DNA from: a bacterium BMS3Abin06
Lineage (GTDB): Bacteria; Nitrospirota; Thermodesulfovibrionia; UBA6902
Direction: 5' to 3'
Assembly (NCBI GenBank): GCA_002897895.1
Contig: BDSY01000100.1
Span: forward strand, 1-54,424
DNA length: 54,424 nucleotides
Shown here piece after piece: positions 8,421 to 26,724 of the stretch. Numbering within the stretch: the stretch's first letter is position 1; every line of letters starts with the position of its first letter. The position numbers and the translations under genes were made by a program. The notes beneath the pieces were generated by a model. It ran no database searches. It was not told the DNA's origin and saw nothing but the letters and a program-made list of their open reading frames with translations.

Positions 8421-8423
8421 GGT

Positions 8424-8605
8424 ATCCGTTCACAGGGGGCAGTTATCAGTTTTCCCCTCTTGAGAGGGGATTAAGGGGTGTGTGTCTTTATTCAGGCTAA
8501 TCTCGCTGTTGTTTCCGAAATGGTGAACCTTTTACTTCAGTTTTGGAGTATGGCAGGATATTCATTGTAAACACACCCCTGCACCCCTCTCAAGAGGGGA
8601 TTTCA
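8424..8605 (+). repeat. Palindrome-ended repeat element, copy 1
   Basis: About 180 bp beginning CCGTTCACAGGGGG, with CCCCTCTTGAGAGGGG near the left end and CCCCTCTCAAGAGGGG near the right end, each next to a (T)GGGGTGTGT block. The ends form long imperfect terminal inverted repeats. Copy 2, in the opposite orientation at 16758-16894, shares both ends but has a different, shorter centre. The hairpins could also act as terminators for the queD and pilus transcripts converging here. Confidence 0.7.
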
Positions 8606-8619
8606 GTCTTTCAGTTTTA

Positions 8620-9510
8620 TTATTCCTCTTCAAAGCCTATTAATATAGTAAAAGGCACGAGCAGCTTACCTCCGTGATTATCACTGACAGATACTTTGGC
8701 TTCGTAAAGACCTTCATCACCGGGCTGTACCTCCCATGTCATGATACCGCTTGACGGATCAACGGTCATGCCCTCCGGCCCCTCGATAAATTTATAGGTA
8801 AGATCGTCGTTGTCAGGATCAGTCGCAGTAATCCGGTATTTGTAAGTTTTCCCATCAAAAGAAGGTGCGCTTTCCAATATAACAGGAAGTGAGTTAAAAA
8901 CCTTGCTTTTCAGTTTGATACTTTTTCCATAATCTTCGCCGTCATAGGGCGTGGCTTCCACAGTGATCATGTCATCTCTTTTCAGTTCTGTGTCAAGGTA
9001 GCTTTCTTCACCGGCAAACCTGCCGTTGAGTGTCCATTTATATTTAAAGGAGATATTGTCTTTGTCTATATCATTTGCTTTCAGATCAACGGCCAGATCA
9101 GAGGAAGCCCTTGGTACCGGAGGCAGCAATGAAGCTTTAAGAATAACAGGTGGGGTGTTTTTTATTATTATCTTATTGGAACGGTATTCTTTGTCTCCGT
9201 CAACAATGACAGCCTGAACAACATCACCTTTTTTCAGCTCATCTGAAATAAGGCGGGGGCCCTTTGAAGAATCATCTCTGCTGTCGTTAATATACCACTG
9301 AACCTCACTATTCTTATTCGTCCGGAGTGATATAATTGTTTGTGCAGCAGCGTCAACCGGGCCGATGATCAGCCCGGAATCTGCAACCGGCTGCCCGGAT
9401 ACAGGAGGTGCCTTGTCTGCTTCCGGCGCTTTTGTATCATCAGAATATTCGCTGCAGCTCAACAGGGTTGCCGCCAATAATAATACTAAAATCCCCCTGG
9501 AAAGGATCAT
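8620..9510 (-). CDS. Exported lipoprotein with Ig/cadherin-like domains, last gene of the pilus tip operon
   Basis: A 296-residue predicted lipoprotein: an N-terminal hydrophobic segment ends in the lipobox LLSC with acceptor Cys19, then a Pro-rich linker. Beta-strand domains follow at about 45-120, 120-205 and 205-290. The last resembles a putative Ig (cadherin-like) domain, with ITATDPDNDDLTYKF and MTWEVQPGDEGLYEAKVSVSD. Its ATG overlaps the PilY1-1 stop by 4 bases, so translation is coupled. I do not know a named family. Context suggests an outer-membrane or periplasmic partner of the PilY1/minor-pilin complex, which is inference. Confidence 0.75.
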   Translation of the reverse strand: MILSRGILVLLLAATLLSCSEYSDDTKAPEADKAPPVSGQPVADSGLIIGPVDAAAQTIISLRTNKNSEVQWYINDSRDDSSKGPRLISDELKKGDVVQAVIVDGDKEYRSNKIIIKNTPPVILKASLLPPVPRASSDLAVDLKANDIDKDNISFKYKWTLNGRFAGEESYLDTELKRDDMITVEATPYDGEDYGKSIKLKSKVFNSLPVILESAPSFDGKTYKYRITATDPDNDDLTYKFIEGPEGMTVDPSSGIMTWEVQPGDEGLYEAKVSVSDNHGGKLLVPFTILIGFEEE

Positions 9511-12500
9511 GGAATCTGCTCACTCTTCCAGCCGGAGACAGCGCTTTTCAGTGAAAACGGAGTTATGCTCTCAATTTCAAGAATAGCGCCGGTTGACTGC
9601 TGGGCAAATCCCTTGCTTGTGCCGCTTGATGTTATCTGCGCGCTGAGGGATGACGGCATTCCTTTTCCCAGTTTTTTGACTCTTGCAACACTGTCAATAT
9701 TAATACTGCTGGATCCTCCTCCGGCAACTACATCAGCGGCATCTTTTTGTTCCTGAAATACATAACCCTGGTAAGCCGAACCTGTAGTATAATAAACCGC
9801 ATATATGTTGCTCTCTCCTTCGTAAGAGCATTCATTAATTCCCGGAATATAGCTTGCCCACGTTACAAGACCACCGAGGACAAGAGGTTTTGTGAACACC
9901 CTTTCACCACTATGGGTGAGAGTGTTGCCGGTAAAATCTACAGTTTCACCGAGGCTATCAAAGTACATTGCCCAGCCATCGCAGCTGTATGAAGCGCTTA
10001 ATAAATCCGACCATGTAGATACGGTTCCGCCGCATGCGCCGCTGATATCGGAGACAGTGCCGTCTATATCTACAGTTGCCGATGACATATCCAGCAAGCC
10101 TGTATAGGAATAGGTGCAATCCCCATCCCAGCAGCCGTCCTTGATAGCATAAAAAGCGCCTGCATCAGTCTGGTTTTTATCTGATGAGCCGAGGAACTCC
10201 CCTGTTCCGAAAAAGACCCAGAGTTTCGCCCTTCCGTCCATTGCCGATGAGGGCGCTGATGTTATTCTTTTTACAATATCTTTATTGCCGGCCATGCTGT
10301 CAACATCTCCAAGAGTCGAGAGTGTCCAGTCTGACGGCGTGCTCTGTGAACCTTTGTTTGTAGTTATCCTGCGTAAAAGGGCATTCCAGTTAGAGCCCTG
10401 CTTGTAGTTTTCACCCAGATATATCACATCTACATCATAGTCAATATCAACATCAACAGTAATCGGATCAGCCATAAATGTGTCTGAATTGCCGGTCAAT
10501 ATCTTCCAGAAGTTTGTGTCTTCTGTCCAGGTACTGATTACCCCGTCTGTTCCACCCGAGATTTTCAGGGCAAAGACATTTCCGTCCTGGAAGCTTGTGA
10601 GATTTGAGTTTGTATCATAGTCAACGGCTCCTGATCCGAAGATTGCAAACCACTCGTCTCCGATTTTCGCAACAGAAGGATAAGTCATGCTGAGGCCAAG
10701 ACCGGGGGAGGTAACTGTCCAGGGGTCTGAAAATGTCCATAGAAGTCTTGGCTCTAAAGGGTCGGTAATATCAAGGGCAAAGTATTCAGGAGAGGCGCTG
10801 TAGCTGTCTGATCCCGATGTCCAGCTTATATCTTTCCCGCCGTACCGGAATCCTCCGATGAGTATGGTTCCCCAGCCGTTTTTGTGAGTATCATCAGCAG
10901 TGAAGATTCTCGCATCTGTTATCTTTGGTTTTAAGTCCACATAATACACATGTGTATAGTCAGGGTCTGTCAGCCATTTCAGATGTGGCAAAAGGCCGCG
11001 CGGTACGAACGCCCAGAGCTCCTCTCCAAGCGTTTTAATTTGGCCATCGGTACAGAAGCTCTCGTCAAACTTCTTGTTTGCCGCATCAAAACAACCTGCA
11101 TTGAATGCATGGAGCATACCGTCATTTGCGCCCACGTAAACTACCTGTCTTCTTTTTAAATGAGTTGATCTGAAACCGGTATAAGAAGTATCCCCGTAAA
11201 GGAGGTCAAAGTTTTCCATTGGCCGGCCTACAACAGTGGGAGTTGAATTGATTATGTCGCCGAGCTTCCATACATTGTTCACCCCATCAATTGTAAGGTC
11301 TCTTTTTCTATATCCGTCAGTATGTCCGGAATCGGTTATGCCCGTAAGGTCGTCACCGCGTACCCAATCGATAATATTCTCTGCTTCCGTTTGATCCGCT
11401 GCCCTGAGATATGCCTGTAATGATGGTAAATCCGATGTGTTGCTCTTGTTAAAAAGAATTCTTGTGTATCCATCTATAGTGGAATAGATAGTCCTGTTTC
11501 CCGCGCTGGTCTCCCAGAGTTTTTTGCCGCCGTCCCATAGAGTGTTTACACTATCAAGATTACCTATCGAAACAGGTGTATCGGAGTCTTTTTCACCATC
11601 ACCATTTAAAGCATCACTGTATTTATTAACCTTAGTGCCTGCATCAGGATCATATTCCATCTCAATAATATAGTCGCTTTTTAGATCAAGGGTTTTGTCG
11701 CCATCTGTGTCTTCGCGCAGATTTCCATATCTGTCAACAAAAAACGCATGAAGATATCCAAGCCAGTTCCGGGATTCAACATCTTCCAGTTTTTCAGGAA
11801 AGAAATATGCCTGATAGATCGCGCCGTCTCCTTCTCCCGTGGTAGCAAGTACACTTACAGCCGTGCCGGAAGATGCGCGGCGGAGAATATCGGTAAGCGC
11901 CTTGATAAGGGTAGCTTCAAGCGCTGAGCCTTCCTGTGCCTCAAAATAGTTATCAGGAACATCATCACCGTCCTCGTCCCATTCACTGGGAAGATCAGGT
12001 ATATCATTATCATTATAATCTCTGAACCCTCCATACTTGGCTGTTTTCTGCAAGAGATCCTTTCCAACAGGAGACTCATCAAAGGCAAAGACCGTATATG
12101 TTGTTAAATTCTGGGTATCATCCCAGTCGCTTCTCAGGTCAGTCGTCTGGGCCCAGTAAGCCACACCTTCGAGATAGTATGTTCCGTCCATATTATTTGC
12201 GCTTACATTCCACTGGCTCGAGTATCCTTCGTTTTCGGCTATCTTGTCCATAGATGTTTTCACATCAAACCCGTCAGGGTCCGTCAGTGTAGAACCCCAA
12301 CTTCCTCCTGGCACATTTCTGTCCTTTGTTGATTCACCGTCGGTTATTATGAGAACAAAATTTTTCTGGCATTTACTTTGTATAGGGTCGTGGTTTTGGC
12401 CGTGGTCGCCGTCGTCGTGGTGGTCGCCGTCATGACATCCCTCAACGCCGCTCATTGCCCTGAAGTGCCGGGTGGCTTCATAGAGGGATTCCGCAAGGGG

Positions 12501-13454
12501 CGTCCATGTCCCGGGATTTTTATTTTCAACTCTTGTCACAAAATCTATATTTTCTCCGGGACCGGTTATCCAGTCTGCTATATAACCTCCGTCTTTATCA
12601 TGCTCATTGTTATCTTCAAATTTACTTCCGTAATTATTAAAATTCATCAATCCGAATCTGATCCTGTCCCACGTTTTTTGCACTACACCTGTAGGCTCTT
12701 CATCGCCGACTTGTACTTTGATAGTATAGGTGTCTTCAATATATGAGCTGTAATTCCAGAAATAGCTGGAACAGCTTCCGCTGCTGATAACATTAATCTC
12801 ACCGGAACTGATATAAAAACACCTTTGTCCGGTTTTGGGAGTGTACGGAGATGCATCCGCTATCTGCTTGAATTGATTTCTGTCCGGATTTTCAGCGCCT
12901 ATCAAATATTTAGCTGTTGCAGCATTTGCCCTGTTTACCGCCTTTCCGCCGACAAGCACCTTTCTTACAACATCTACTCTCCTCATTGTAAGCCAGTTCA
13001 GGAAATTACCGTCCCAGGTTCCGGAGGTGTCTTCATAGAAGTTTCCTCCTGCTGAAGTTGAATAAGAATATTGTTTGTCCGGATCAAAATATCCGTAATA
13101 TTCTTTATTCGGGTCAAAACTGTCGTCAGGGCAGTCGGTGCCGTATCCGCTGTAACCATTGGTTGAAATAGAATCACAGTCACAAGGCGACCAGCCTGAG
13201 CCGTCCCAGCACCACCAGAAATTTGATTGAAGCGGCACTCCCCTTGAATTTGATACATCAAAGTCCTTATAAGCAAACTCATTCATGGAACCTGAATTGT
13301 CAAGCAGCACCAGAACATTGGGTGTGACCTGCTGGGATACAAAAGGCGGATATGCCGTATAATCAATCATGTCCGCTGCAGTTGCTGTTTCTGCGCCGCC
13401 CGTTAAAACAAACTGTAATGCAATGATTAAAATTATTTTTACATATTTACACAT
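9507..13454 (-). CDS. pilY1: PilY1-type pilus tip adhesin, copy 1 (minor pilin operon)
   Basis: A 1315-residue secreted PilY1/PilC-family protein. An N-terminal signal peptide (to about 27) is followed by a von Willebrand A domain with MIDAS DNSGS at 52-56 and TDGES near 371. The C-terminal Neisseria_PilC beta-propeller spans about 770-1230, starting at VGANDGMLHAFN. A DxDxDxDxD calcium-type loop lies at 1001-1009 and RGD at 699-701. A His/Asp-rich loop (about 340-356) is bracketed by Cys340 and Cys362. PilY1 proteins cap type IV pili with the minor pilins, prime assembly and mediate adhesion. AGGAGGT precedes the ATG. The gene follows the small exported protein by 10 bases and overlaps the lipoprotein start. 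Confidence 0.93.
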   Translation of the reverse strand: MCKYVKIILIIALQFVLTGGAETATAADMIDYTAYPPFVSQQVTPNVLVLLDNSGSMNEFAYKDFDVSNSRGVPLQSNFWWCWDGSGWSPCDCDSISTNGYSGYGTDCPDDSFDPNKEYYGYFDPDKQYSYSTSAGGNFYEDTSGTWDGNFLNWLTMRRVDVVRKVLVGGKAVNRANAATAKYLIGAENPDRNQFKQIADASPYTPKTGQRCFYISSGEINVISSGSCSSYFWNYSSYIEDTYTIKVQVGDEEPTGVVQKTWDRIRFGLMNFNNYGSKFEDNNEHDKDGGYIADWITGPGENIDFVTRVENKNPGTWTPLAESLYEATRHFRAMSGVEGCHDGDHHDDGDHGQNHDPIQSKCQKNFVLIITDGESTKDRNVPGGSWGSTLTDPDGFDVKTSMDKIAENEGYSSQWNVSANNMDGTYYLEGVAYWAQTTDLRSDWDDTQNLTTYTVFAFDESPVGKDLLQKTAKYGGFRDYNDNDIPDLPSEWDEDGDDVPDNYFEAQEGSALEATLIKALTDILRRASSGTAVSVLATTGEGDGAIYQAYFFPEKLEDVESRNWLGYLHAFFVDRYGNLREDTDGDKTLDLKSDYIIEMEYDPDAGTKVNKYSDALNGDGEKDSDTPVSIGNLDSVNTLWDGGKKLWETSAGNRTIYSTIDGYTRILFNKSNTSDLPSLQAYLRAADQTEAENIIDWVRGDDLTGITDSGHTDGYRKRDLTIDGVNNVWKLGDIINSTPTVVGRPMENFDLLYGDTSYTGFRSTHLKRRQVVYVGANDGMLHAFNAGCFDAANKKFDESFCTDGQIKTLGEELWAFVPRGLLPHLKWLTDPDYTHVYYVDLKPKITDARIFTADDTHKNGWGTILIGGFRYGGKDISWTSGSDSYSASPEYFALDITDPLEPRLLWTFSDPWTVTSPGLGLSMTYPSVAKIGDEWFAIFGSGAVDYDTNSNLTSFQDGNVFALKISGGTDGVISTWTEDTNFWKILTGNSDTFMADPITVDVDIDYDVDVIYLGENYKQGSNWNALLRRITTNKGSQSTPSDWTLSTLGDVDSMAGNKDIVKRITSAPSSAMDGRAKLWVFFGTGEFLGSSDKNQTDAGAFYAIKDGCWDGDCTYSYTGLLDMSSATVDIDGTVSDISGACGGTVSTWSDLLSASYSCDGWAMYFDSLGETVDFTGNTLTHSGERVFTKPLVLGGLVTWASYIPGINECSYEGESNIYAVYYTTGSAYQGYVFQEQKDAADVVAGGGSSSINIDSVARVKKLGKGMPSSLSAQITSSGTSKGFAQQSTGAILEIESITPFSLKSAVSGWKSEQIP

Positions 13455-13464
13455 GGGTTACCTC

Positions 13465-13818
13465 CTAATGCCGTAATTCAAGCCCTTCAATTACTATTTC
13501 AATAACCCTGTCTCCGTAAATCCTTGCGCTTACATTTGCCGATTGAGCAGCTTTAAAGGCTTTAGTGTTCTTTATGATTTCCCCTCCCTGATACCTTATA
13601 ACAATATCGGGAGACAACTTGTACTTCCTGTCATTGATAACAACCGATTTGTCGGTTATATCGGTCATGACCCCCTCTGTCCAGTTCATTTCACTGGTTG
13701 AAGGCATGCCTTTTATTCCCTGGTTTCCTATTTCTTTAAAAAGCCTTACCTGCTGGCTCCATAGATTTCCCGGAAACATCAACAGGAAAAATATTATTAT
13801 CAGAACGGGTTTTTTCAT
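13465..13818 (-). CDS. Small exported protein between pilX and pilY1
   Basis: A 117-residue protein with a clear signal peptide (MKKPVLIIIFFLLMFPGNLWSQ, cleavage near 21-22) and a strand-rich mature part containing GVMTDITDKSVVINDRKY. I do not recognise the family. It lies 28 bases after pilX and 10 bases before pilY1-1 in the same operon, so a periplasmic role in pilus tip assembly or PilY1 handling is likely but inferred. No lipobox and no prepilin motif are present. Confidence 0.7.
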   Translation of the reverse strand: MKKPVLIIIFFLLMFPGNLWSQQVRLFKEIGNQGIKGMPSTSEMNWTEGVMTDITDKSVVINDRKYKLSPDIVIRYQGGEIIKNTKAFKAAQSANVSARIYGDRVIEIVIEGLELRH

Positions 13819-13845
13819 AATTTCCTCCGGTTATGTTTTAATTTT

Positions 13846-14367
13846 TTATTTGGGCACATACCTGTAAATCGCTCCAATGTCCGCCGTTGAGTCAGCCAGA
13901 TCAACGCCTGTTGAATTTATCCTGTAGAAGGCATAAAAATTACCGCTGATGCCTTTGCCGACGCCATCATAGCCTGATGCAAACTCCATGGCAGAGCCGG
14001 GTATCGGCCTGCTGTACATCCTGTCAATATCTACTGCCACGTTCCGGCCATCTATTGCAAATACGACATCATCATTGACGTCAGTGTCAAAAGCTACCGC
14101 CCTCAGCTCATTAGCTAAACTCGTATCGGTGACAATATTTACAAAACCCGTATTGTTATCTTCTCTGACAGTGTGTTCAATTACTGCCGTACTGATTTCA
14201 ACTCCCGCCTCTGCCCTGGAAATATTTCTTTCCCTGAGACGGATGTTTCCTGAAAGCATATTTTCTATAGAGCTTGTTCCTATAGCCGCAAGGCCGATTA
14301 CAGTAAGCACAAGCAGCAGAAGCAAAACAGTAACGAGAATATAACCATTATCTTCTTTTTTCAACAT
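13846..14367 (-). CDS. pilX: PilX-type minor pilin / pilus assembly protein
   Basis: 173 residues. A charged leader MLKKEDNG precedes the hydrophobic stretch YILVTVLLLLLVLTVIGLAA, followed by SSIENMLSGNIRLRERN and RAEAGVE. That is the PilX_N pattern, in which the residues around AEAG replace the usual Glu5 signature of other pilins. In Pseudomonas-type systems PilX joins PilV, PilW and FimU in the tip complex that recruits PilY1. Position between pilW and the exported protein matches the canonical order. Confidence 0.85.
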   Translation of the reverse strand: MLKKEDNGYILVTVLLLLLVLTVIGLAAIGTSSIENMLSGNIRLRERNISRAEAGVEISTAVIEHTVREDNNTGFVNIVTDTSLANELRAVAFDTDVNDDVVFAIDGRNVAVDIDRMYSRPIPGSAMEFASGYDGVGKGISGNFYAFYRINSTGVDLADSTADIGAIYRYVPK

Positions 14368-14380
14368 TATGCTAACCTCC

Positions 14381-15421
14381 CTAATTTCTCATTGTTACCA
14401 ATGTCTGCCACCATCTGCGCCTGAAACTGTCATTTGTCGCGGCATGACTGCGGTTTTCTATCAAACCCGGTGGATTGCCGAGCCCTGCATAATTAACGTC
14501 CGCTTTGTCGGCCCTTGCAAGAACATTGACTCGAATAGCCCTGATGTCTGCAGGGTCGGCCACTGCCGAACCGTTTATGAAATCTCCTCCATCAAGCATA
14601 TTATTGTTATTGAGGTCATCTATCTCGCCGTCATTATCCGCGTCTACTGCATACGCAAACTGAAGGTCTTCTATGTTTTCAGCAATGGCATCGTCATCAG
14701 AGCCTGCTATGCCTGCACAATTGGTGATATCGGCATTTCTTCGTATTCTGCGGAGGGTTGAATTAGCGTCTACACAAAATGTGATGTCCTCAACAAGGTA
14801 AACGGGTCTTCCGACATCACACTGAGTATCGCTATCCGTATCCAGAAGCGGAAAGTCCTGTATCAGCGAACGGTCAAGGGTTATGTCGGCGCTTGCGACA
14901 CAACTGCCGTTAGTTATAGTACAGGCTGATACCTGGACAAACTGAACTCCATCAATACTTAAAAGACTTCTGTCCGAAGCAGCATTGACGGCAACATTAC
15001 CGGAATAGTTTATTCTAATCGCTGTAGCATCCAGAGGCACAACAGCCGGACAGGTTACTGCACCGCCTCCGGCAGGCCAGAGTTGGCCTATCCTTCTGAA
15101 GCCTCCAACAATTGTAATCGCATCAGGTGCGCCTGTGCCGCCCTCAACAGGAGTTACAATGGTTGTGAATCCATTGATCGGATCCTGGTTCATGCTTGCA
15201 GGGACCCCGTAACCCGCGCTTCTTATGGCATCCGCAATCAGGTCATGGGCTATCTTTGATTGAGTGTTTATCTCCGATACGCTCTCCTGCGCAACATACG
15301 AGCGATTTTGCGATATATATGTTGCAGTAGCGGCTGAAATCAGGACAAAGCCGATGACAATGGCAATCAGCATCTCTACAAGTGTGTACCCCTTATCGTT
15401 TTTATGGTATAGCATTTTCAT
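14381..15421 (-). CDS. pilW: PilW-type minor pilin
   Basis: 346 residues with a class III prepilin leader. Leader peptidase would cut in DKG|YTLVEMLIA, leaving Tyr as the first mature residue and Glu5 in VEML, followed by the usual hydrophobic helix. The large strand-rich C-terminal domain has several Cys pairs and a Ca-binding-like NDGEIDDLNNNN run. PilW is a core component of the minor pilin tip complex. Its first 20 bases overlap the end of pilV, so the genes are translationally coupled. Confidence 0.87.
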   Translation of the reverse strand: MKMLYHKNDKGYTLVEMLIAIVIGFVLISAATATYISQNRSYVAQESVSEINTQSKIAHDLIADAIRSAGYGVPASMNQDPINGFTTIVTPVEGGTGAPDAITIVGGFRRIGQLWPAGGGAVTCPAVVPLDATAIRINYSGNVAVNAASDRSLLSIDGVQFVQVSACTITNGSCVASADITLDRSLIQDFPLLDTDSDTQCDVGRPVYLVEDITFCVDANSTLRRIRRNADITNCAGIAGSDDDAIAENIEDLQFAYAVDADNDGEIDDLNNNNMLDGGDFINGSAVADPADIRAIRVNVLARADKADVNYAGLGNPPGLIENRSHAATNDSFRRRWWQTLVTMRN

Positions 15422-15875
15422 CCCACCTTAATGAATCGATTGTTACGGAGTGAGTTACTCCGTTTTTGTCCGACCAGCATGTTCTTGCCCGGATCGCTGT
15501 GGATCTTACCGCCGCTGTTCCGTCAGGAACAACGGAGCATGCAGCTGTAAGACTCGCCCCACAGGTACTATCATCACTTGTCAGGTTCAGGGCGGCGCAA
15601 TTCGCAAAGACCCACCATCTCTTTGTAAAACTTATCCCACCGGATATAGCCGTTCCAGCGGTAGGCGTATCTGTTCCATTGGCCAAATCAGCATACGGGG
15701 TGCCTTTCAACTGCTCGACTATCTCCTGGCTCAGGCTTGTGGCGGTTCTCACTTCCCTGCTGCCGGCATTGCCGGTGATTGCATAGTACTGCATTCCCAT
15801 TACTCCAAGCATTCCGAGAAGTAATATCACCATTGCAACCATTACCTCAACTAATGTGAAACCATATTTGTTCAT
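15402..15875 (-). CDS. pilV: PilV-type minor pilin
   Basis: About 157 residues from the start chosen here. The prepilin signature is MNKYG|FTLVEVMVAMVILLLG, with Gly at -1, Phe at +1 and Glu5. I place the start at the ATG at 15875 because it gives a normal 5-residue leader. An in-frame ATG at 15920, inside the end of the upstream gene, would add 15 residues encoded by an AACAATGAACA-type repeat. Neither start has a strong ribosome binding site, so reinitiation after the upstream stop is plausible. The C-terminal domain contains four Cys. Confidence 0.85.
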   Translation of the reverse strand: MNKYGFTLVEVMVAMVILLLGMLGVMGMQYYAITGNAGSREVRTATSLSQEIVEQLKGTPYADLANGTDTPTAGTAISGGISFTKRWWVFANCAALNLTSDDSTCGASLTAACSVVPDGTAAVRSTAIRARTCWSDKNGVTHSVTIDSLRWDENAIP

Positions 15876-15901
15876 CGTTCTCTGTTCATTGTTTATTGTT
15901 C

Positions 15902-16525
15902 TCAATTTATCTCCGTCCATCCTGTATTGCCTGTATCGTCTTCATCACCCTCCCACATAAATAAGTCGATCAGCCCCGCTGCATTAACAAGCTCGACACA
16001 AAATGCATAACCCCTGCCAATGTGCTGCAGATATGCTGTGCCGCTCGGATTTGCCGAGCCGTCTGGCAGAAAGTTGAAATTTATTGCATTACTTATAGCA
16101 TTACCATCCGGGTTATTGGGAGGAACGATTGCAAAATTGCCGGTGTCTAGGACAACATCATTCCCATATTCATTTTGAATATTAATAACTTTGGCTGTTG
16201 TTGTATTTCCATATCCGTCCGCTGTATCTAAAAGAGAGCCATTGCCGTTTCCATCAAAACCGATTCTGTAAATATTTTCACTTGAGGAGCTTTCATTAAA
16301 TGTAATTAAATAAGTCCGGTTTTCCTTGATTGCCATTGTCCTTGCAAGCCTCATGTTCTGTAAAAGATCACTTGCTGCTCTTCTTACCGAGCTTTTGGCG
16401 GCAAACCTTCCATATTCCGGTACACCTATGGCAGCAAGAATTGCGATAATGGACATTACGACTACAAGCTCCACAAGTGTTATGCCTTTTTTCTCTCTTA
16501 TTATGGCGATATTCATCATGTCCAT
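15902..16525 (-). CDS. fimU: GspH/FimT-type pseudopilin, first gene of the minor pilin operon
   Basis: 207 residues with a prepilin motif at KKG|ITLVELVVVMSIIAILAAI (Glu5 present), then SSVRRAASDLLQNMRLARTMAIKENR. That arrangement is typical of the GspH/FimT/FimU family, with a beta-rich C-terminal head. In Pseudomonas the FimU protein links the PilV-W-X tip complex to the major pilin. It is the promoter-proximal gene here, about 90 bases downstream of a conserved upstream cassette. The gene symbol is by position and motif; FimT is an alternative name. Confidence 0.86.
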   Translation of the reverse strand: MDMMNIAIIREKKGITLVELVVVMSIIAILAAIGVPEYGRFAAKSSVRRAASDLLQNMRLARTMAIKENRTYLITFNESSSSENIYRIGFDGNGNGSLLDTADGYGNTTTAKVINIQNEYGNDVVLDTGNFAIVPPNNPDGNAISNAINFNFLPDGSANPSGTAYLQHIGRGYAFCVELVNAAGLIDLFMWEGDEDDTGNTGWTEIN

Positions 16526-16530
16526 TGATT

Positions 16531-16640
16531 AGCAAATATGATGCTAAAAACAAAAAGATTATTTTTAAAGGAGTTAGTCTGATTTGATATGATTGTTGTG
16601 TAATCCGGTTCATAGAATTATGTAATTCGTTACATAATTC
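16531..16640 (-). promoter_or_regulatory. Shared upstream cassette, copy A (minor pilin operon)
   Basis: About 110 bp nearly identical to the regions upstream of PilY1-2 and PilY1-3. It contains AGCAAATATGATGCT at the gene-proximal end and an inverted repeat GAATTATGTAA-ttcg-TTACATAATTC (16615-16640) at the distal end, preceded by TGTAATccggTTCATA. Repeated ATGTAA half-sites suggest an operator for a dimeric regulator. I cannot fix a -10/-35 with confidence. Confidence 0.65.
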
Positions 16641-16647
16641 CCAGGAT

Positions 16648-16690
16648 AAAAAAGCCCTTTCCCTCCCCCCTTGACGGGGCAAGGAAAGGG
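16648..16690 (-). terminator. Hairpin terminator after PilY1-2
   Basis: On the minus strand CCCTTTCC (16683-16690 complement) pairs with GGAAAGGG (16655-16662 complement), with an inner GC stem and a TTGAC-type loop. It is followed by a run of six T. It lies downstream of PilY1-2 and just upstream of the minor-pilin cassette, so it should isolate the two transcripts. A near-identical copy follows PilY1-3. Confidence 0.75.
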
Positions 16691-16757
16691 TGAAGTAACC
16701 GTTCACGGGTTATGTTTGTTTACCTTTGCTGATTACAAACACCGCAATGGAAAGACT

Positions 16758-16894
16758 AAAATCCCCTCTTGAGAGGGGTGCAGGGGTGTGTTTGCAACGC
16801 AAAACATGAAAGAGATCAGACTGGATAAAGACACACACCCCTTAATCCCCTCTCAAGAGGGGAAAACTGATAACCGCCCCCCGTGAACGGTTAC
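16758..16894 (-). repeat. Palindrome-ended repeat element, copy 2 (inverted relative to copy 1)
   Basis: Read on the minus strand it begins CCGTTCACGGGGGG and ends with the same CCCCTGCACCCCTCTC block as copy 1 at 8424-8605. The centre is different and about 45 bp shorter. The two copies bracket the whole minor-pilin/PilY1-1 operon in opposite orientations. Confidence 0.7.
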
Positions 16895-16928
16895 AGGGTG
16901 AAGATGAAAAACGGATTTTTAATAATAC

Positions 16929-19900
16929 TCAGGGTATCGGCTTATTCGCCCAGCCTATGGTGTCACTTTTCAGAGAAATCGGGTTGATACTCTCCATTTG
17001 AAGGATACTGCCGGTTACCTGCTGGGCAAATCCCATAGTTCCGCCACTTGATGTTATCTGCGCGCTGACGGATGATATTACTTCCCCTTCCAGTTTTTTG
17101 ACTCTTGCAATATTAGTATTATCATAAGTGGGTGTTTCCAGATCAGCGTCATCTTGCTGTTCCCTGAATACATAATTCTGGTAAGCAGAGCCTGTCTTAT
17201 AATAAATTGCATATAGATTGCTTTCTCCTCCGGAAGAGCAGGCGCTGTCATCAGGTATGAAGGTTGTCCATGTTACAAGCCCGCCGATGACAAGTGGTTT
17301 TGAGACCACCCTTTCACCATCATGAGTGAGAGTTTCGCCGGTGAAATCTTCCTCTTCCACAAGATCATCAAAATACATTGCCCAACCATCACAATTGTAT
17401 GAAGCGCTTAATAAATCCGACCATGTGGATACTGTTGTTTCGTCGCAGGGAGTGATACCCGTTACACTGCCGTCTATACCCACTTCAGCATCGGATATAT
17501 CCAGCAGGCTTGTATAAGAGGACCCACAACTTCCATTCCAGCAGCCGTCCTTGATTGCATAAAAAGCGCCTGTATCGTCCTGGTTTTTGTCTGATGCGCC
17601 AAGGAACTCTCCTGTCCCGAAAAAGAGCCAGAGGTTTGCCCTGTTATCCATTGCTGCGGTGGGAGCTGCGGTGATTCTTTTTATATCATCTTTGCTGCCG
17701 GCAATGGCGTTTATATCTCCAAGAGTCGAAAGTGTCCAGTCTGATGGCGTGCTCTCTGAACCCTTGTTTGTAGTTATCCTGCGCAAAAGGGTATTCGGGT
17801 TATTGCCTGCATCCCGATAGTTCTCCCCAAAATATATCACATCCGTGTCATAGTCAATATCAACATCAACACTAATCGGATCTGCCATAAATGTGTCTGA
17901 ATTGCCGGTTGATATCTTCCAGAAGTTTGTGTCTTCAGTCCAGGTATTGATAACCCCGTCTGTTCCGGCTGAGATTTTCAGGACAAAGATATTTCCATTC
18001 TGGAAGCTTGTAAGGTTTGAGCTTGTATCATAGTCAACGGCTCCTGATCCGAAGATTGCAAACCACTCGTCTCCGATTTTCGCAACAGAAGGATAAGTCA
18101 TGCTGAGACCGAGACCGGGGTCTGAAAATGTCCATAAAAGTCTTGGACTCAAAGGGTCGGTAATATCAAGGGCAAAATACTCAGGGGAGGCGCTGTAGCT
18201 GTCTGATCCTGATGTCCAGCTTATATCCTTCCCCCCGTAGCGGAATCCGCCGATGAGTATGGTCCCCCAGCCGTTTTTGTGAGTAGTGTCAGCCGTGAAG
18301 ATTTTTGCATCTGTTATCTTTGGCTTTGCATCAACATAGTACACATGGGTATAGTCAGGGTCTGTCAGCCATTTCATATGGGGCAACAGGCCGCGCGGTA
18401 TGAACGCCCAGAGCTCTTCGCCAAGGGCGTAACTTCCTGTAGTGCAGTCGCCGTTGTTATCAATAGGGCCGGTGCAATATGCATCATTTTTCTCGCTGTA
18501 GTAACCTGAGTTAAATGCATGAAGCATGCCGTCATTTGCGCCCACGTAAGCTACCTGCCTTCTTTTTAAATGCTCTGATCTGAAACCGGTATAAGAAGCG
18601 TCCCCGTAAAGGAGGTCATAGTTTTCCATCGGCCTGCCCACAACAGTGGGAGTTGAATTGATTATGTCGCCGAGCTTCCATACATGTGTATCGCTGTCGA
18701 TAGTGATGCTCCTCTGTCTGTAACCGTCAGGATGACCGGCATCTGTTGTATATGCTTTAAAGTCATTTCCGGTCACATCGTTAGTAAAATCATATCCGCG
18801 GATCCAGTCGATAATATTCACTGCTTCCGTCTGATCCGCTGCCCTGAGATATGGCTGCAATGTCAAAGAGTTTGTGGTTTCAAGGCTAATCTTAGTGTAT
18901 CCATTGGTGGTTGTATAGATAGTCCTGTCGTCCGGATTTTTTTTCCAAAGTTCGTTGGCGCCGTCCCAGACAGAGGTACCGTCCGCATTCAGAGCCTTAA
19001 TATTTCCAAGCCACTTCCGGGGACTGAGGTTTTCCATTTTTTGCGGATAGAAATATGCCTGATAAAGCGCTCCATCTCCTGCCCCTGCATTGGCCGGCAC
19101 GCCTGCAGCAGTGCCGGAAGAAACACTGTCAAGTATAGCGTAGATGGCATTTATAAGCGCACCCTCAAGCTGATAACCATCTATTGCCTCATAGAATGTG
19201 TCATTGTACCCGTTTACATCATTGTCACTGTCATACTCGCCCGCCAGATCGGGCAAAAAATCTCCATTGCTGTCTATAAAACCTCCGTTCCTTGCCGCGC
19301 CTCCTCCTGACGCCGCACACCAGTTCAGGAGCCTTTTAGCATCAGGCGAGCCGCTGCCGAAGTTTGCATAGATGAAATAATGGGTAAGATACTGCTCGTC
19401 CGGAAGGTCGGGATAGGTTGCGTCATCTCTGAGGTCTCTGTATTTTTCAGCAGAAGCGCTAAGATCCACATGTCCCCAAAGGGCAACTTCATCAATATAG
19501 TGGGAGCCGTTTAAAGTCCAGAAGTAGTCGCTTCCTTCCCAGCCGGGCAGAGCGCCTGTGCCATCAGTATAAGTTGTATTAAATGCATCGGACAGCGTCG
19601 TGGTATCAATATTCCTGTCAGTAGTGGGCTCTCCATCCGTAATAGTTATGACAAAGCTTTTGGCGCATGGAGTCCAGTCAGTATCAGTAGCCGGATCATC
19701 CGCATAGTTATACGGGTCTACGCCGTTACCAACCGGATAAGAGCCGTCCGGGTATAAAGCGCCGGTGCCCCTTTGCTGGAAGTAACCTGTTGCCGTCCAG
19801 AGTGATTCGGCAATAGGTGTAGCAGGTGTCAAAGGAATATTATTTGCAATTAATTTAACTATAGCCTCTGCTCTTGTTAATGTCTCTGCTGTACCGTTTA

Positions 19901-20921
19901 TTGTTACCGTTACATTATTGTCATAATACCCGCACGGAACCACTACTATCCCGCCTTCAACATTGACCTTGTCTATAAAAGGTTCAGGCAGTTCTCCATG
20001 ATGGGTGCCGGTACACTGGAATGTCTCTGTATACATCCCCCCGTGCCCGTCATGCCCGCATCCATGCTCTTCACTTGTATCACCTGGATCAGGGTTGTCA
20101 TACTGCGCCTGGTCGGAGATAAATTCAAGCCCCCATCTCACATTGTCGCCAACCATCTGGACTACACCCTCTGGCTCTGAATCCCTGTGCACTATGACCT
20201 TTTTATCATTTGTACTGTCATAAGTTGGGCCGACGCTAAAGGCAGAGACATCAGTCAAAGTTATTGGTTCCGGCATCGGGGCATGTTCATCAGTGATATC
20301 TATAAGGTCGTTATTAAAGGTGAATGTTGTGCTGTTCGTGCTCATGCAGCCACCTCCCAGTGGTGAAACATCACAGAGCACATCATCAGGAACCTCCTTT
20401 TGATAACCATCATATCCGGTAAATGCCTTCTGTCCCAGGAGGTCATGAGGATCTCCGGTGACGCCGATCCTCGCTCTTGTCTTTCCTCCAACAATAACCT
20501 TCTTTAATATGTCTACCCTCCTCATTGTAAGCCAGTTCAGGAAATTGCCCTTCCAGTCGGCAGTTGTAGCGCCTGTTGTTGTCCACTCTCCATTGATACT
20601 GTCATATATATACCACTCATCAGGCTCAAAATAGCCGTAGTAAGTCTTGGTTGAATCAAAACCCTGACTTACTGGTATCAGTGTGTCATCTCTATAGTCT
20701 GCACTCGTTACCTGATTGTAATCAAAATCATATGCAAAGTAGAACTGGGAGAAAGAGGTATCGACATTGAGGAGGACATTCGGCTTTGTCAGCGTGCCGC
20801 TGAATGGCGGAAATGCCGTATATTGAGATATGCCCGGGGAAGCGGAAAAAGCCTCATTTATCCGGAACGGAAAAACAGACAGTATTAGAATTACCACGTA
20901 TATTTTTGTTTTTTTTAACAT
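16929..20921 (-). CDS. PilY1-type pilus tip adhesin, copy 2
   Basis: About 1330 residues from the ATG at 20921, chosen because MLKKTKIYVVILILSVF starts a normal signal peptide and matches PilY1-3. The frame stays open upstream to a TTG at 20969, through a G10 tract (separate entry). The vWA-like N-terminal region has DTSFS at 54-58 as the DxSxS MIDAS motif. A His/Cys-rich loop lies near residues 285-310 (HGCGHDGHGG). The C-terminal beta-propeller contains VGANDGMLHAFN and the DVDIDYDTD calcium-type loop. The RGD of the other two copies is RGY here. The N-terminal two-thirds resembles copy 3, while long propeller stretches are identical to copy 1. It is its own transcription unit. Confidence 0.92.
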   Translation of the reverse strand: MLKKTKIYVVILILSVFPFRINEAFSASPGISQYTAFPPFSGTLTKPNVLLNVDTSFSQFYFAYDFDYNQVTSADYRDDTLIPVSQGFDSTKTYYGYFEPDEWYIYDSINGEWTTTGATTADWKGNFLNWLTMRRVDILKKVIVGGKTRARIGVTGDPHDLLGQKAFTGYDGYQKEVPDDVLCDVSPLGGGCMSTNSTTFTFNNDLIDITDEHAPMPEPITLTDVSAFSVGPTYDSTNDKKVIVHRDSEPEGVVQMVGDNVRWGLEFISDQAQYDNPDPGDTSEEHGCGHDGHGGMYTETFQCTGTHHGELPEPFIDKVNVEGGIVVVPCGYYDNNVTVTINGTAETLTRAEAIVKLIANNIPLTPATPIAESLWTATGYFQQRGTGALYPDGSYPVGNGVDPYNYADDPATDTDWTPCAKSFVITITDGEPTTDRNIDTTTLSDAFNTTYTDGTGALPGWEGSDYFWTLNGSHYIDEVALWGHVDLSASAEKYRDLRDDATYPDLPDEQYLTHYFIYANFGSGSPDAKRLLNWCAASGGGAARNGGFIDSNGDFLPDLAGEYDSDNDVNGYNDTFYEAIDGYQLEGALINAIYAILDSVSSGTAAGVPANAGAGDGALYQAYFYPQKMENLSPRKWLGNIKALNADGTSVWDGANELWKKNPDDRTIYTTTNGYTKISLETTNSLTLQPYLRAADQTEAVNIIDWIRGYDFTNDVTGNDFKAYTTDAGHPDGYRQRSITIDSDTHVWKLGDIINSTPTVVGRPMENYDLLYGDASYTGFRSEHLKRRQVAYVGANDGMLHAFNSGYYSEKNDAYCTGPIDNNGDCTTGSYALGEELWAFIPRGLLPHMKWLTDPDYTHVYYVDAKPKITDAKIFTADTTHKNGWGTILIGGFRYGGKDISWTSGSDSYSASPEYFALDITDPLSPRLLWTFSDPGLGLSMTYPSVAKIGDEWFAIFGSGAVDYDTSSNLTSFQNGNIFVLKISAGTDGVINTWTEDTNFWKISTGNSDTFMADPISVDVDIDYDTDVIYFGENYRDAGNNPNTLLRRITTNKGSESTPSDWTLSTLGDINAIAGSKDDIKRITAAPTAAMDNRANLWLFFGTGEFLGASDKNQDDTGAFYAIKDGCWNGSCGSSYTSLLDISDAEVGIDGSVTGITPCDETTVSTWSDLLSASYNCDGWAMYFDDLVEEEDFTGETLTHDGERVVSKPLVIGGLVTWTTFIPDDSACSSGGESNLYAIYYKTGSAYQNYVFREQQDDADLETPTYDNTNIARVKKLEGEVISSVSAQITSSGGTMGFAQQVTGSILQMESINPISLKSDTIGWANKPIP

Positions 20922-20922
20922 T

Positions 20923-20932
20923 CCCCCCCCCC
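20923..20932 (-). repeat. G10 homopolymer tract at the PilY1-2 start
   Basis: Ten consecutive G on the coding strand end one base before the chosen ATG. PilY1-3 has GAGGAGGGAGTGAAA at the same place, so the tract replaces a normal ribosome binding site. Length changes would alter the Shine-Dalgarno spacing, or the frame if translation starts at an upstream ATG or TTG. Confidence 0.85.
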
Positions 20933-20986
20933 ACATTCTTGCTTCGCTGCCTATCATGCTGATACCCAATTGATATCTTTATATTT

Positions 20987-21098
20987 AGCAAATATGATGC
21001 TAAAAAACAAAAAGCTTGTTTTCAAAGGAGTTAGTGTAAGCAGGTATGATTGCTATGTAATCCGGTTCATAGAATTATGTAATCTGTTACATAATTCT
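20987..21098 (-). promoter_or_regulatory. Shared upstream cassette, copy B (PilY1-2)
   Basis: Second copy of the conserved region. It holds a perfect 12-bp inverted repeat AGAATTATGTAA-tctg-TTACATAATTCT (21071-21098), preceded by ATGTAATccggTTCATA. At the gene-proximal end is the AGCAAATATGATGCT block. This is the best-preserved operator candidate of the three. Confidence 0.68.
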
Positions 21099-21104
21099 CA
21101 CGAT

Positions 21105-21146
21105 AAAAAAGCCCTTTCCCTCCCCCTTGACGGGGAAAGGAAAGGG
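21105..21146 (-). terminator. Hairpin terminator after PilY1-3
   Basis: Same design as the terminator at 16648-16690: the minus-strand stem is formed by 21139-21146 and 21112-21119, with a GC inner stem and six T afterwards. It lies 28 bases beyond the PilY1-3 stop and makes PilY1-3 a separate unit from PilY1-2. Confidence 0.78.
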
Positions 21147-21173
21147 TGGAGGTAAAAAACGGATTTTTAATAA

Positions 21174-24100
21174 TCAGGGTATTGGCTTATTCGCCCAGCC
21201 TATGGTTTCACTTTTCAGAGAAATCGGGTTGATACTCTCCATTTCAAGGATACTGCCGGTTACCTGCTGGGCAAATCCCATAGTTCCGCCGCTTGATGTT
21301 ATCTGCGCGCTGACGGATGATATCACTCCTCCGTCCAGTCTTTTGACCCTTGCAATATTTGTAAGATCATAAGGGGTTGATCCTCCACCGGCAACCAGGT
21401 CAGCGGCATCCTGCTGTTCCCTGAATATATAATTCTGGTAAGCAGAGCCTGTCTTGTAATAAATCGCATACAGATTGCTCTCTCCCCCGGAAGAGCAGGC
21501 GCTGTCATCAGGTATAAAGGTTGTCCATGTTACAAGCCCGCCGATGACAAGTGGTTTTGAGACCATCCTTTCACCACCATGATTGCCCGCACTGTTAGTA
21601 AGGCTTTTGCCGGTGAAATCTGCACTTTCAACGAGGGTATTAAAATACATTGCCCAACCATCACAATTGTATGAAGCGCTTAATAAATCCGACCATGTGG
21701 ATACTGTTGTTGCGTCGCAGGGAATGATGCCCGTTACACTGCCGTCTATATTTACAACAGCCTCGGATATATCCAGCAGGCTTGTATAAGATGACGGCGG
21801 CGTCCCACAACTTTCATTCCAGCAGCCGTCCCTGACAGCATAAAAAGCGCCTGTATCGGTCTGGTTTTTGTCCGATGCGCCAAGGAACTGTCCTGTCCCG
21901 AAAAAAACCCAGAGATTTGTCCTGTTATCCATTGCTACCGAGGGGGCCGCTGTGATTCTTTTTGCGCTATCCTTGGTGCCGGCGACAGTGTCAATATTTG
22001 CAACAGTTGATAGTGTCCAGTTTGATGGCGTGCTCTCTGAACCTTTGTTTGTAGTTATCCTGCGCAAAAGGGTATTCGGGTTATTGCCTGCATCCCAATA
22101 GTTTTCTCCAAAATATATCACATCCGTGTCATAGTCAATATCAACATCAACAGTGATGGGGTCGGCCATAAATGTGTCTATATTGCCGGTTGATATCTTC
22201 CAGAAGTTTGTGCCTTCAGTCCAGGTGCTGATTACCCCGTCTGATCCTCCCGAGATTTTCAGGACAAAGATGTTTCCGCTCTGGAAGCTTGTAAGGTTTG
22301 AGAATATATCATACTCTGTGGCTCCTGATCCGAAGATGGCAAACCAGTCGTCTCCGATTTTCGCAACAGAAGGATAAGTCATGCTGAGACCGAGACCGGG
22401 GTCTGAAAATGTCCATAGAAGTTCCGGATTCGCAGGGTCGGTAATATCAAGGGCAAAATATTCAGGTGAGGCGCTTCCTGATGTCAAGTTTATATCTTTC
22501 CCGCCGTACCCGAATCCGCCGATGAGTATGGTCCCCCAGCCATTTATATGGGTAGTAGTGTCAGCAGTGAAGATTTTTGCATCTGTTATCTTTGGCTTTG
22601 AATCCACATAGTACACATGGGTATAGTCAGGGTCTGTAAGCCATTTCAGATGGGGCAAAAGGCCGCGCGGTATGAATGCCCAAAGCTCTTCGCCGCTCCC
22701 TGCATTGAATGCATGAAGCATGCCGTCATTTGCACCTACGTAAACTACCTGGCTTCTTGTTAAATGCTCTGATCTGAAACCGGTATAAGAAGCGTCCCCG
22801 TAAAGGAGGTCATAGTTTTCCATGGGCTGCCCCACAACAGTGGGAGTTGAATTGATTATGTCGCCGAGTTTCCATACATTGGTTGAAGTTACACCGTTGA
22901 CGGTAAGGGTAAGGTCCCTTTTTCTATATCCATTGGGATGTCCTGAATCGGTTATGCCCGTAAGGTCGTCTCCGCGAATCCAGTTGATAATATTGCCTGT
23001 CTCCGCGGTATCCGCTGCCCTGAGATGTGTCTGTAATGTTGTTGAAGAATATGCGGTTTCAAAACTAAACTTAGTGGATCCGTCTGTAGTTGTATAGATA
23101 GTCCTGTTTCCGGGGCTTGTCTCCCAGAGTATTGTGCCGCCGTCCCAGATAGACGTACCGTCCGCATTCAGAGCCTTAATATCTCCAAGCCACTTCCGGG
23201 AACTGAGGTTTTCCATTTTTTGCGGATAGAAATATGCCTGATAAAGCACTCCATCTCCTGCCCCTGCGTTGGCCGGCATGCCTGCTGCGGTGCCGGAAGA
23301 TACGCTGTCAAGTATGCCGTAGATGGCATTTATAAGCGCACCCTCAAGCTGATATCCATCTATTGCCTCATAGAATGTGTCATTGTACCCGTTTACATCA
23401 TTGTCATACTCGCCCGCCAGATCGGGTAAAAAATCTCCGTTGCTGTCTATAAAGCCGCCGTTCCTTGCTGCCCCGCCTCCTGACGCCGCAGACCAGTTCA
23501 AGAGCCTTTCACCATCAGGCGAGCCGCTGCCGAAGTTTGCATAGATGAAATAATGGGTAAGATACTGATCGCCGTCGAGGACTGCCCCTGTTCCAATACT
23601 CCCGTCTCTCAGGTCTCTGTATTTTGCAGGAAGACTGTCAATATCCGCATGACCATAGAAAGCAACGTTATCAATATAGTGGGAGCCGTTTAACTGCCAG
23701 AAGTAGTCGGTCGACGCTGCTGCCCAGGCAGGTGGGTTAGCGGAAGTGTCGGCATATGTTGAGCCATACCCCTGTTGTGCAAGCGGAATGTTTAAGTCAG
23801 TGGTCGGCTCTCCGTCTGTAATAGTTATAACAAAGCTTTTGGCGCATGGAGTCCGGTCAGTATCAGTAGCCGGATCATCCGCATAGTTATACGGATCAAC
23901 GTCGCTGCCAACCGGATAGGAGCCGTCCGGGTATAAAGCGCCTGTGCCCCTCTGCTGGAAATAACCTGTTGCCGTCCAGAGTGATTCGGCAAGGGGTGTA
24001 GCAGGTGTCAGGGGAATATTGCTCCCGATTAATTTAACTATGGCGTCTTCCCGCGTTATCGGGTTAGTGGCATCATATACCGTGCCGTTTATTGTTACCG

Positions 24101-25139
24101 TTACATTATTGTCATAATAGCCGCACGGAACAACTACTATCCCGCCCTCAACATTGACCTGGTCTACAAAGCTGGCGGCAGGCGCTATAACACCATCATG
24201 TATGCCGACACACTGGAATGTCTCTGTATAAATGCCCAAATCACCGTGACCACCATGCCCGCATCCATGCTCCGGTGACTCAGTCAGTTCACTCAGAGCA
24301 GGGCTCGGATACTGCTGCTGGTCGGAGATAAATTCAAGCCCCCATCTCACATTGTCGCCAACCATCTGGACTACACCCTCAGGCTCTGAAGCCCTGTGCA
24401 CTATTACCTTGTAATCACTTAAACTGTCATAAGTTAAACCAACGCTGAACGCGGAGACATCGGTCAGCGCTATCGGGTCCGGCATCGGGTCATTCTCACC
24501 GAAAGTTACCAGGTTGTTATTAAAGGTGAATGTTGTGCTGCTTGTGCTCATGCAGCCACCCATTCCGCCACCTCCAAGTGGTGAGACAGTGCAGAGCACA
24601 TTATCGGGAACCTCCTTCTGATAACCGTCATGCCCGGTAAAGGCCTTCTGCCCCATGAGGTCATAAGGGTCCCCGGCAGCGCCGATCCTCGCTCTTGTCT
24701 TTCCTCCGACAATAACCTTCTTCAATATATCCACTCTCCTCATTGTAAGCCAGTTCAGGAAATTGCCCTTCCAGTCAGCAGTTGTAGCGCCTGTTGTTGT
24801 CCATTCTCCGTTGATACTGTCATATTTATACCACTCATCAGGCTCAAAATAGCCGTAATAAGTTGTGGCTGGAAGAAACCCCTGGCTGACAGGTGGTAGA
24901 CTTAAAACTCCCGCCTGTACACTCTGTACCTGGTTGTAATCAAAATCATATGCAAAGTAGAACTGGGAGAAAGAGGTATCGACATTGAGAAGGACATTCG
25001 GCTTTGTCAGCGCGCCGCTGAATGGCGGAAATGCCGTATATTGAGATATGCCCGGAGAACCGGGAAAAGCCTCATTTGTTTGGAACAGAAAAACGGACAG
25101 GATTAGAATTACGACGTATATTTTTGTTTTTTTTAACAT
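21174..25139 (-). CDS. PilY1-type pilus tip adhesin, copy 3
   Basis: About 1321 residues from the ATG at 25139, which has GGAGGGAG at good spacing; a GTG two codons earlier is possible. It has a signal peptide, vWA-like region with DTSFS at 54-58, a His/Cys-rich loop (HGCGHGGHGD), the RGD motif in WIRGDD, the VGANDGMLHAFN propeller start and a DVDIDYDTD loop. Upstream region, signal peptide and N-terminal half closely match PilY1-2, with a spacing of 4218 bp between start codons, so the two arose by tandem duplication that included promoter and terminator. Confidence 0.92.
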   Translation of the reverse strand: MLKKTKIYVVILILSVFLFQTNEAFPGSPGISQYTAFPPFSGALTKPNVLLNVDTSFSQFYFAYDFDYNQVQSVQAGVLSLPPVSQGFLPATTYYGYFEPDEWYKYDSINGEWTTTGATTADWKGNFLNWLTMRRVDILKKVIVGGKTRARIGAAGDPYDLMGQKAFTGHDGYQKEVPDNVLCTVSPLGGGGMGGCMSTSSTTFTFNNNLVTFGENDPMPDPIALTDVSAFSVGLTYDSLSDYKVIVHRASEPEGVVQMVGDNVRWGLEFISDQQQYPSPALSELTESPEHGCGHGGHGDLGIYTETFQCVGIHDGVIAPAASFVDQVNVEGGIVVVPCGYYDNNVTVTINGTVYDATNPITREDAIVKLIGSNIPLTPATPLAESLWTATGYFQQRGTGALYPDGSYPVGSDVDPYNYADDPATDTDRTPCAKSFVITITDGEPTTDLNIPLAQQGYGSTYADTSANPPAWAAASTDYFWQLNGSHYIDNVAFYGHADIDSLPAKYRDLRDGSIGTGAVLDGDQYLTHYFIYANFGSGSPDGERLLNWSAASGGGAARNGGFIDSNGDFLPDLAGEYDNDVNGYNDTFYEAIDGYQLEGALINAIYGILDSVSSGTAAGMPANAGAGDGVLYQAYFYPQKMENLSSRKWLGDIKALNADGTSIWDGGTILWETSPGNRTIYTTTDGSTKFSFETAYSSTTLQTHLRAADTAETGNIINWIRGDDLTGITDSGHPNGYRKRDLTLTVNGVTSTNVWKLGDIINSTPTVVGQPMENYDLLYGDASYTGFRSEHLTRSQVVYVGANDGMLHAFNAGSGEELWAFIPRGLLPHLKWLTDPDYTHVYYVDSKPKITDAKIFTADTTTHINGWGTILIGGFGYGGKDINLTSGSASPEYFALDITDPANPELLWTFSDPGLGLSMTYPSVAKIGDDWFAIFGSGATEYDIFSNLTSFQSGNIFVLKISGGSDGVISTWTEGTNFWKISTGNIDTFMADPITVDVDIDYDTDVIYFGENYWDAGNNPNTLLRRITTNKGSESTPSNWTLSTVANIDTVAGTKDSAKRITAAPSVAMDNRTNLWVFFGTGQFLGASDKNQTDTGAFYAVRDGCWNESCGTPPSSYTSLLDISEAVVNIDGSVTGIIPCDATTVSTWSDLLSASYNCDGWAMYFNTLVESADFTGKSLTNSAGNHGGERMVSKPLVIGGLVTWTTFIPDDSACSSGGESNLYAIYYKTGSAYQNYIFREQQDAADLVAGGGSTPYDLTNIARVKRLDGGVISSVSAQITSSGGTMGFAQQVTGSILEMESINPISLKSETIGWANKPIP

Positions 25140-25205
25140 TTTCACTCCCTCCTCATTCTTGCTTCAGTGCCTATCATGCTGATATTCAATAGATATCTTT
25201 TATTA

Positions 25206-25317
25206 AGCAAATATGATGCTAAAAAACAAAAAGCTTATTTTAAAAGGGGTTTGTGCAAGCAGGTTTGATTGTTATGTAATCCGGTTCATAGAACTATGTA
25301 ATCTGATTCATAATTCT
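25206..25317 (-). promoter_or_regulatory. Shared upstream cassette, copy C (PilY1-3)
   Basis: Third copy, with AGCAAATATGATGCT at 25206-25220 and TATGTAATCCGGTTCATA preserved. The distal inverted repeat is degenerate (AGAACTATGTAA-tctg-ATTCATAATTCT, 25290-25317). It is not followed by the terminator hairpin found beside copies A and B. Confidence 0.62.
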
Positions 25318-26251: not shown

Positions 26252-26326
26252 TAAAATAGTGTAGCAAGTGAAGAATCAAAAGTCACGAAAATATTGACAG
26301 CGGCATCTATTTTCCTTGAGGTAACT

Positions 26327-26634: not shown

Positions 26635-26658
26635 TCATGAATTTGCCCTTAAATTAAG

Positions 26659-26719: not shown

Positions 26720-26724
26720 ACAAC

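Follow-up and report, generated by a model that had tools for sequence, protein, structure and literature searches.

How do three PilY1 tip proteins, encoded side by side, relate to a single set of minor pilins? The question is raised by a locus from an uncultured bacterium, placed in the Nitrospirota by its named relatives (metagenome-assembled genomes of Nitrospirae / Thermodesulfovibrionia), in which three pilY1 genes and one minor-pilin set lie together, all on the minus strand of a 54,424-nucleotide stretch that is called here the window. The three proteins could be made together or one at a time, could be mere spares of one another, or could partly act away from the pilus, and these readings are weighed below against the gene content, the control regions, the histories of the proteins and the arrangement in relatives.

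Three pilY1 genes and one minor-pilin set

Genes were called from open reading frames and Pfam curated cut-offs, and signal peptides, the lipobox and MIDAS motifs were judged by eye. The genes and the elements between them are as follows.

21174-25139, minus strand: stand-alone pilY1 A, 1321 aa; PF05567 with E 3.9e-19 at residues 757-1100
21112-21146, minus strand: intrinsic terminator after A; 15-bp stem, T6, -29.3 kcal/mol, z -4.7
16929-20921, minus strand: stand-alone pilY1 B, 1330 aa; PF05567 above cut-off
16703-16903, no strand assigned: MITE-like insertion of ~200 bp between B and the terminator of B; 8-bp target duplication TTCACCCT
16645-16691, minus strand: intrinsic terminator after B; U-tract, -28.3 kcal/mol, z -2.6
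15902-16525, minus strand: fimU, GspH-type minor pilin; PF12019 and N_methyl
15402-15920, minus strand: pilV-like minor pilin; N_methyl, TIGR02523 under cut-off
14381-15421, minus strand: pilW minor pilin; PF16074, the sole PilW of the genome
13846-14367, minus strand: pilX minor pilin; PF14341
13465-13818, minus strand: small exported protein; no Pfam match, position and kinship kept in relatives G021, G026 and G033
9507-13454, minus strand: operon pilY1 C, 1315 aa; PF05567 above cut-off
8620-9510, minus strand: Ig-domain protein with a lipoprotein-like N-terminus; PF05345/PF17963, last gene of the operon, kept in relatives

As the first-pass annotation had proposed, two full-length stand-alone pilY1 genes (A and B), without pilin genes of their own, precede a complete minor-pilin operon, and open reading frames and Pfam matches locate all of its parts. 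The operon (8620-16525) reads fimU-pilV-pilW-pilX-exported protein-pilY1 (C)-lipoprotein-like gene; it contains the type IVa order fimU-pilV-pilW-pilX-pilY1, and its gene order is the same in relatives. The true start of fimU is probably 16519 or 16516. The C-terminal beta-propeller domain of the PilY1/PilC family (PF05567) is above its curated cut-off in A, B and C, and the C-terminal part matches the solved PilY1 structure of P. aeruginosa, 3HX6 (E 7e-21). In protein sequence A shares 82% identity with B, and C 57-58% with either. Between A and B, dN is 0.106 and dS 0.356, and the dN/dS of about 0.3 indicates that both copies are probably under purifying selection. PilW (PF16074) is present once in this genome, as in nearly all relatives having PilW, and PilO is likewise present once. 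With one minor-pilin set and one PilO, the three tips would serve one pilus machine.

Hairpin terminators had been thought to isolate the units from each other. Such terminators do separate A from B and B from fimU, but none lies ahead of unit 1. The MITE-like elements at 16703-16903 and 8422-8612 have terminal inverted repeats (GTAACCGTTCACGGG) and many copies dispersed over the genome. An invertible operon flanked by inverted repeats (8422-8612 and 16750-16894) was considered and rejected, since the repeats are dispersed MITE copies. No recombinase or invertase was found among the Pfam-annotated genes near the locus, and no invertible promoter or silent partial pilY1 copy at the locus itself, which therefore shows neither the invertible element nor the dedicated recombinase by which a phase-variable or invertible adhesin would be recognised.

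Some further observations concern the stand-alone genes. Runs of adenines stand directly 3' of the start codon, eight in A (25121-25139) and seven in B (20903-20921); they form a slippage-prone tract within the signal peptide and possibly reflect base composition only. Between pilY1 A and a tRNA-Pro(cgg) gene (25440-28524) there are toxin-antitoxin genes and remnants, namely HicAB-like genes, an HVO_A0114-type regulator and a broken copy of that regulator. In the sister species (G001; L194, 1605-2465) a Phd/VapC-like pair and the same tRNA adjoin the stand-alone pilY1, the tRNA having the opposite orientation relative to pilY1. A phage or plasmid origin of the stand-alone genes was considered and discarded, with no phage match and one weak plasmid match.

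The control region shared by the three units

Each unit begins behind a promoter-like block, as listed here.

25192-25317, minus strand: promoter block of unit 1 (A); two upstream sites, sigma-54-type -24/-12 at 25206-25224
20972-21099, minus strand: promoter block of unit 2 (B); two upstream sites, sigma-54-type -24/-12 at 20987-21005
16529-16640, minus strand: promoter block of unit 3 (fimU operon); two upstream sites, sigma-54-type -24/-12 at 16531-16549

The shared block is ~110 bp long; identity of its copies to that of unit 2 is 88-91%, with E 1e-33 to 5e-62. A search of the 2.98-Mb genome with the block returned these three full copies only, in agreement with the earlier claim that the same region stands ahead of all three units. 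Its core, TAGCATCATATTTGC (TAGCAT-N5-TTGC), is invariant in the three units and is spaced like a sigma-54 -24/-12 element (GC, ten bases, GC). Upstream of the core there are two sites ~22 bp apart, built on TGTAAC-N-GATTACA, and the upstream palindrome of unit 1 is weaker and deviates from those of the other units. Besides the correctly spaced -24/-12 element, the genome encodes rpoN and 17 strong sigma-54 activators. It should be noted that the -24 element has AG rather than GG, so that the strength of the promoter is uncertain.

The GC...TTGC part is conserved in the promoters of relatives, where a sigma-54-type motif was found ahead of fimU or stand-alone pilY1 at 23 of the 27 starts tested, against a background of 6.5% of random 470-nt pieces. 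In relatives the motif is often at -27 to -32 of fimU, and in many genomes the sigma-54 element stands about -28 to -32 from the start (16516-16549 in the window). An element so near the fimU start should yield a nearly leaderless mRNA. In stand-alone pilY1 genes the leader is tens of bases long and includes a ribosome site. The weaker palindrome of unit 1, together with the leaders of A and B, unlike the near-leaderless fimU, may make expression of the units unequal.

The regulon was sought through pattern searches. Over 49 genomes the pattern GATTACA-N40-70-GCAT-N5-TTGC gave 33 matches, some of them due to chance, compared to 2 in the reversed control. A fourth site in the genome (C32:71171-71278; L193, 4989-7250) lies ahead of genes for a FecR-domain protein and an fn3-domain lipoprotein-like protein, likely a further member of the pilus regulon, and in the relative G042 a site of this pattern precedes a prepilin gene. 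These two sites suggest that the block is a regulon promoter and is not peculiar to the three pilY1 units. In G041, a member of the same order, near-identical promoters of this type are found at C28:18822 and C45:8430 (L199, L200), each ahead of a PilY1-like gene. In the window's own genome (G000), RpoN is encoded on two contigs (C10:2695-2832 and C16:46312-46449) with identical score and frame length, which reflects either a duplication or redundant contigs. Sigma-70-type promoters were also looked for; the 52 hits, compared to 35 +/- 7 in shuffles, gave no common site explaining the shared block. Since the three promoters are copies of one sigma-54-type element, co-expression of the units is the default expectation.

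N-terminal tip modules and presumed C-terminal docking halves

The C-terminal propeller region is mostly 70-95% identical among A, B and C, the N-half of C is about 25-50% identical to those of A and B, and the divergence between the A and B proteins is greatest in the N-half. No significant Pfam VWA hit was obtained in A, B or C for a vWA-type tip module. The DxSxS and xTDGE columns (MIDAS residues) are invariant or nearly so in the alignments, and related operon proteins have PF00092 matches near the cut-off. The N-half of the G001 operon protein contains an H-type lectin domain (PF09458, above cut-off), and in several other N-halves a weak vWA match follows a DUF1349 segment (below cut-off). 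For the N-halves of A and C, AlphaFold gave unusable models, with pLDDT of 31 and 36. In M. xanthus, the C-terminal domain of PilY1 binds the minor pilins and PilO and the N-terminal part faces outward (PMC7541494); by analogy, the conserved C-halves found here should dock on the single minor-pilin set.

The two halves have different histories. In the C-half tree, A, B and C group together with both G001 proteins (100/98). In the N-half tree the stand-alone proteins of genera g1 and g2 form one group (100/100), and C falls with the operon proteins of genus g14 (100/99), apart from the operon protein of G001. In AU tests, with groups picked once the trees were known, the C-half grouping was rejected for the N-halves (p 1e-47 and 2.6e-5); for the C-halves, the grouping of C with g14 was rejected (4e-4) and the stand-alone clade only moderately so (0.026). 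The same boundary appears in the synonymous distances, on which constraint on the protein has no bearing. Between A and C, dS is saturated over most of the N-half and falls to 0.37-0.67 in the C-half. Between the operon pilY1 genes of the two sister species it is saturated through most of the N-half and is 0.38-0.73 in the C-half, the latter being near the level of the minor pilins (0.28-0.46; pyrG 0.31 and eno 0.26). Compared with A in 50-residue steps, the stand-alone gene of G001 shows 91-100% identity in most steps over residues 51-550 and 48-89% beyond them; the N-half of A is ~95% identical to it in nucleotides, with an N-half dS of 0.11, below the other genes compared. As the assemblies are drafts, some of the mosaics, above all the G001 stand-alone gene, could be assembly chimeras.

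These sequences support the view that genes have exchanged their N-terminal tip modules in the course of evolution. The first-pass annotation had proposed a cassette system for swapping tip adhesins, and the conflicting trees and the drop in dS sustain this idea as evolutionary exchange. As a physiological switch it is not supported, given the near-identical promoters and with no invertible element found.

The array in relatives, rival readings and known systems

Most other genera of the family have the fimU operon between a TldD/PmbA-like gene and queD-ftsB-eno-pyrG (names read from the sequences). The synteny search that had been advised was carried out, and a stand-alone pilY1 was found directly ahead of fimU in both known species of the genus: two genes in the window and one in G001, where contigs C227 and C26, overlapping by 271 identical terminal bases, give one stand-alone gene. 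Stand-alone pilY1 genes are also present in genus g2, at different positions; G016 and G022 have them in tandem pairs, and G022 has four different stand-alone N-halves in addition to the operon copy. In G002, a genome listed as 100% complete, the sigma-54-type promoter described above precedes a single stand-alone pilY1 (C63, L071), and there is no PilW hit; either the minor-pilin operon is absent from that assembly or PilY1 works there without it.

We consider it fairly probable that the locus encodes a co-regulated set of interchangeable mosaic PilY1 tips on one minor-pilin base, with docking, co-expression, mixed tips and an adhesive role as its presumed features. One type IVa tip-assembly set (FimU-PilV-PilW-PilX) would be provided with three alternative PilY1 tip proteins. 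Through copies of one sigma-54-type promoter, the three units would probably be made together when a putative NtrC-type activator is on. Each PilY1, A and B included, would dock on the minor pilins of the operon via its conserved C-terminal beta-propeller half and expose a different N-terminal module, so that pilus tips of several kinds would coexist. In the course of evolution the N-terminal modules would have recombined at the boundary of the propeller domain, and the docking half would stay compatible through vertical descent and gene conversion.

If instead only one of the three tip proteins were made at a time, by regulated or stochastic switching, the separate promoters and terminators would allow unit-by-unit control, the deviating palindrome of unit 1 and the differing leaders could set the units apart, and M. 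xanthus would offer a precedent, as HsfBA regulates pilY1.1 and pilY1.3 oppositely (PMC9109919). However, the sigma-54 core is identical in 3/3 units and the upstream sites nearly so, no recombinase, invertible promoter or silent copy was seen, and the flanking inverted repeats are dispersed MITEs. Exclusive expression would need a further layer, of which none was found at the locus, and we regard switching as quite unlikely. A plain tandem duplication, leaving A and B as near-equivalent spares for redundancy or dosage without functional specialisation, would fit their 82% identity, the duplication of promoter and terminator along with the genes, and the similar pair of promoters in G041. Yet the N-half of C is merely 31-35% identical to those of A and B, so not all three can be redundant; the stand-alone class is old, being common to genus g2 with at least four such genes in G022, and the A and B proteins diverge most in the N-half. 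We hold this reading to be rather unlikely. Equally doubtful is that the stand-alone array acts as a reservoir, from which tip modules would be traded with the operon copy, reciprocally or by gene conversion, so as to generate diversity within populations; the conserved propeller half and the shared promoter could supply the homology, and the donors would be expressed full-length genes, not silent cassettes.

That the stand-alone PilY1 proteins work off the pilus, whether as independent adhesins, secreted or on the surface, or as signal proteins for surface sensing, would agree with G002, which has such a protein and no PilW hit, and with reports of PilY1 in membranes and culture supernatants elsewhere (PMC7541494). 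It appears very improbable, as their C-halves group with the operon protein of the same genus, their promoter is that of the minor pilins and both species of the genus have them immediately in front of fimU. That the assembly falsely multiplied a single pilY1 gene is extremely improbable: the genome is a draft in 112 contigs and repeats are known to cause misassembly, but the copies differ by 18-43% in protein, separate intergenic regions lie between them, a stand-alone pilY1 occupies this position in the sister species too, and tandem stand-alone pairs recur in G016 and G022.

The preferred reading, a co-regulated set of tips on one base, has partial counterparts in known systems. In P. aeruginosa the operon layout is alike (order fimU-pilVWXY1Y2E, AlgR-controlled) and the PilY1 C-terminal structure matches, with a single PilY1 there. 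The minor pilin/PilY1 clusters 1-3 of M. xanthus likewise hold three PilY1 proteins with conserved C-halves and differing N-halves (PMC7541494, PMC13190605, PMC9109919), and the NtrC-like regulator HsfA acts on two of the pilY1 genes, for which 'accessorizing T4P tips' was already proposed (PMC9109919). There, every PilY1 gene lies in a cluster of its own together with genes for four minor pilins, and the clusters are <36% identical to one another, whereas here three PilY1 proteins are encoded at one locus, behind copies of one promoter, with one minor-pilin set that has the only PilW of the genome. Neisseria and Kingella kingae have two tip adhesins, PilC1 and PilC2, and one minor-pilin operon that does not encode them, and both proteins are present in purified Kingella pili (PMC12607826); the earlier view of a single tip protein for each minor-pilin set as the usual case was thus too strong. 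Unlike in these genera, the copies found here are in tandem directly ahead of the operon, share sigma-54-type promoters and include a third copy inside the operon. In the ComC/PilY1 cassette of Acinetobacter, vWA-module variants of the tip adhesin are likewise replaced by recombination (PMC10374093), but there strains differ by replacement of the entire pilus gene cluster, whereas here replacement is within the gene and the alternatives coexist in one genome.

Multiple PilY1 proteins per genome, multiple tips per set, recombinational replacement of modules and tip accessorizing by regulation are therefore known. A search of the open-licence literature for PilY1 with Nitrospirota or with gene conversion returned nothing on point. 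New is that these features come together in Nitrospirota, where mosaic tip genes form a tandem, co-promoted array in front of a single minor-pilin operon. The locus is a natural example of several tip adhesins having to fit a single minor-pilin base; it provides sequence evidence for the boundary between tip module and docking part, and makes pilus-tip diversification a testable question in Nitrospirota.
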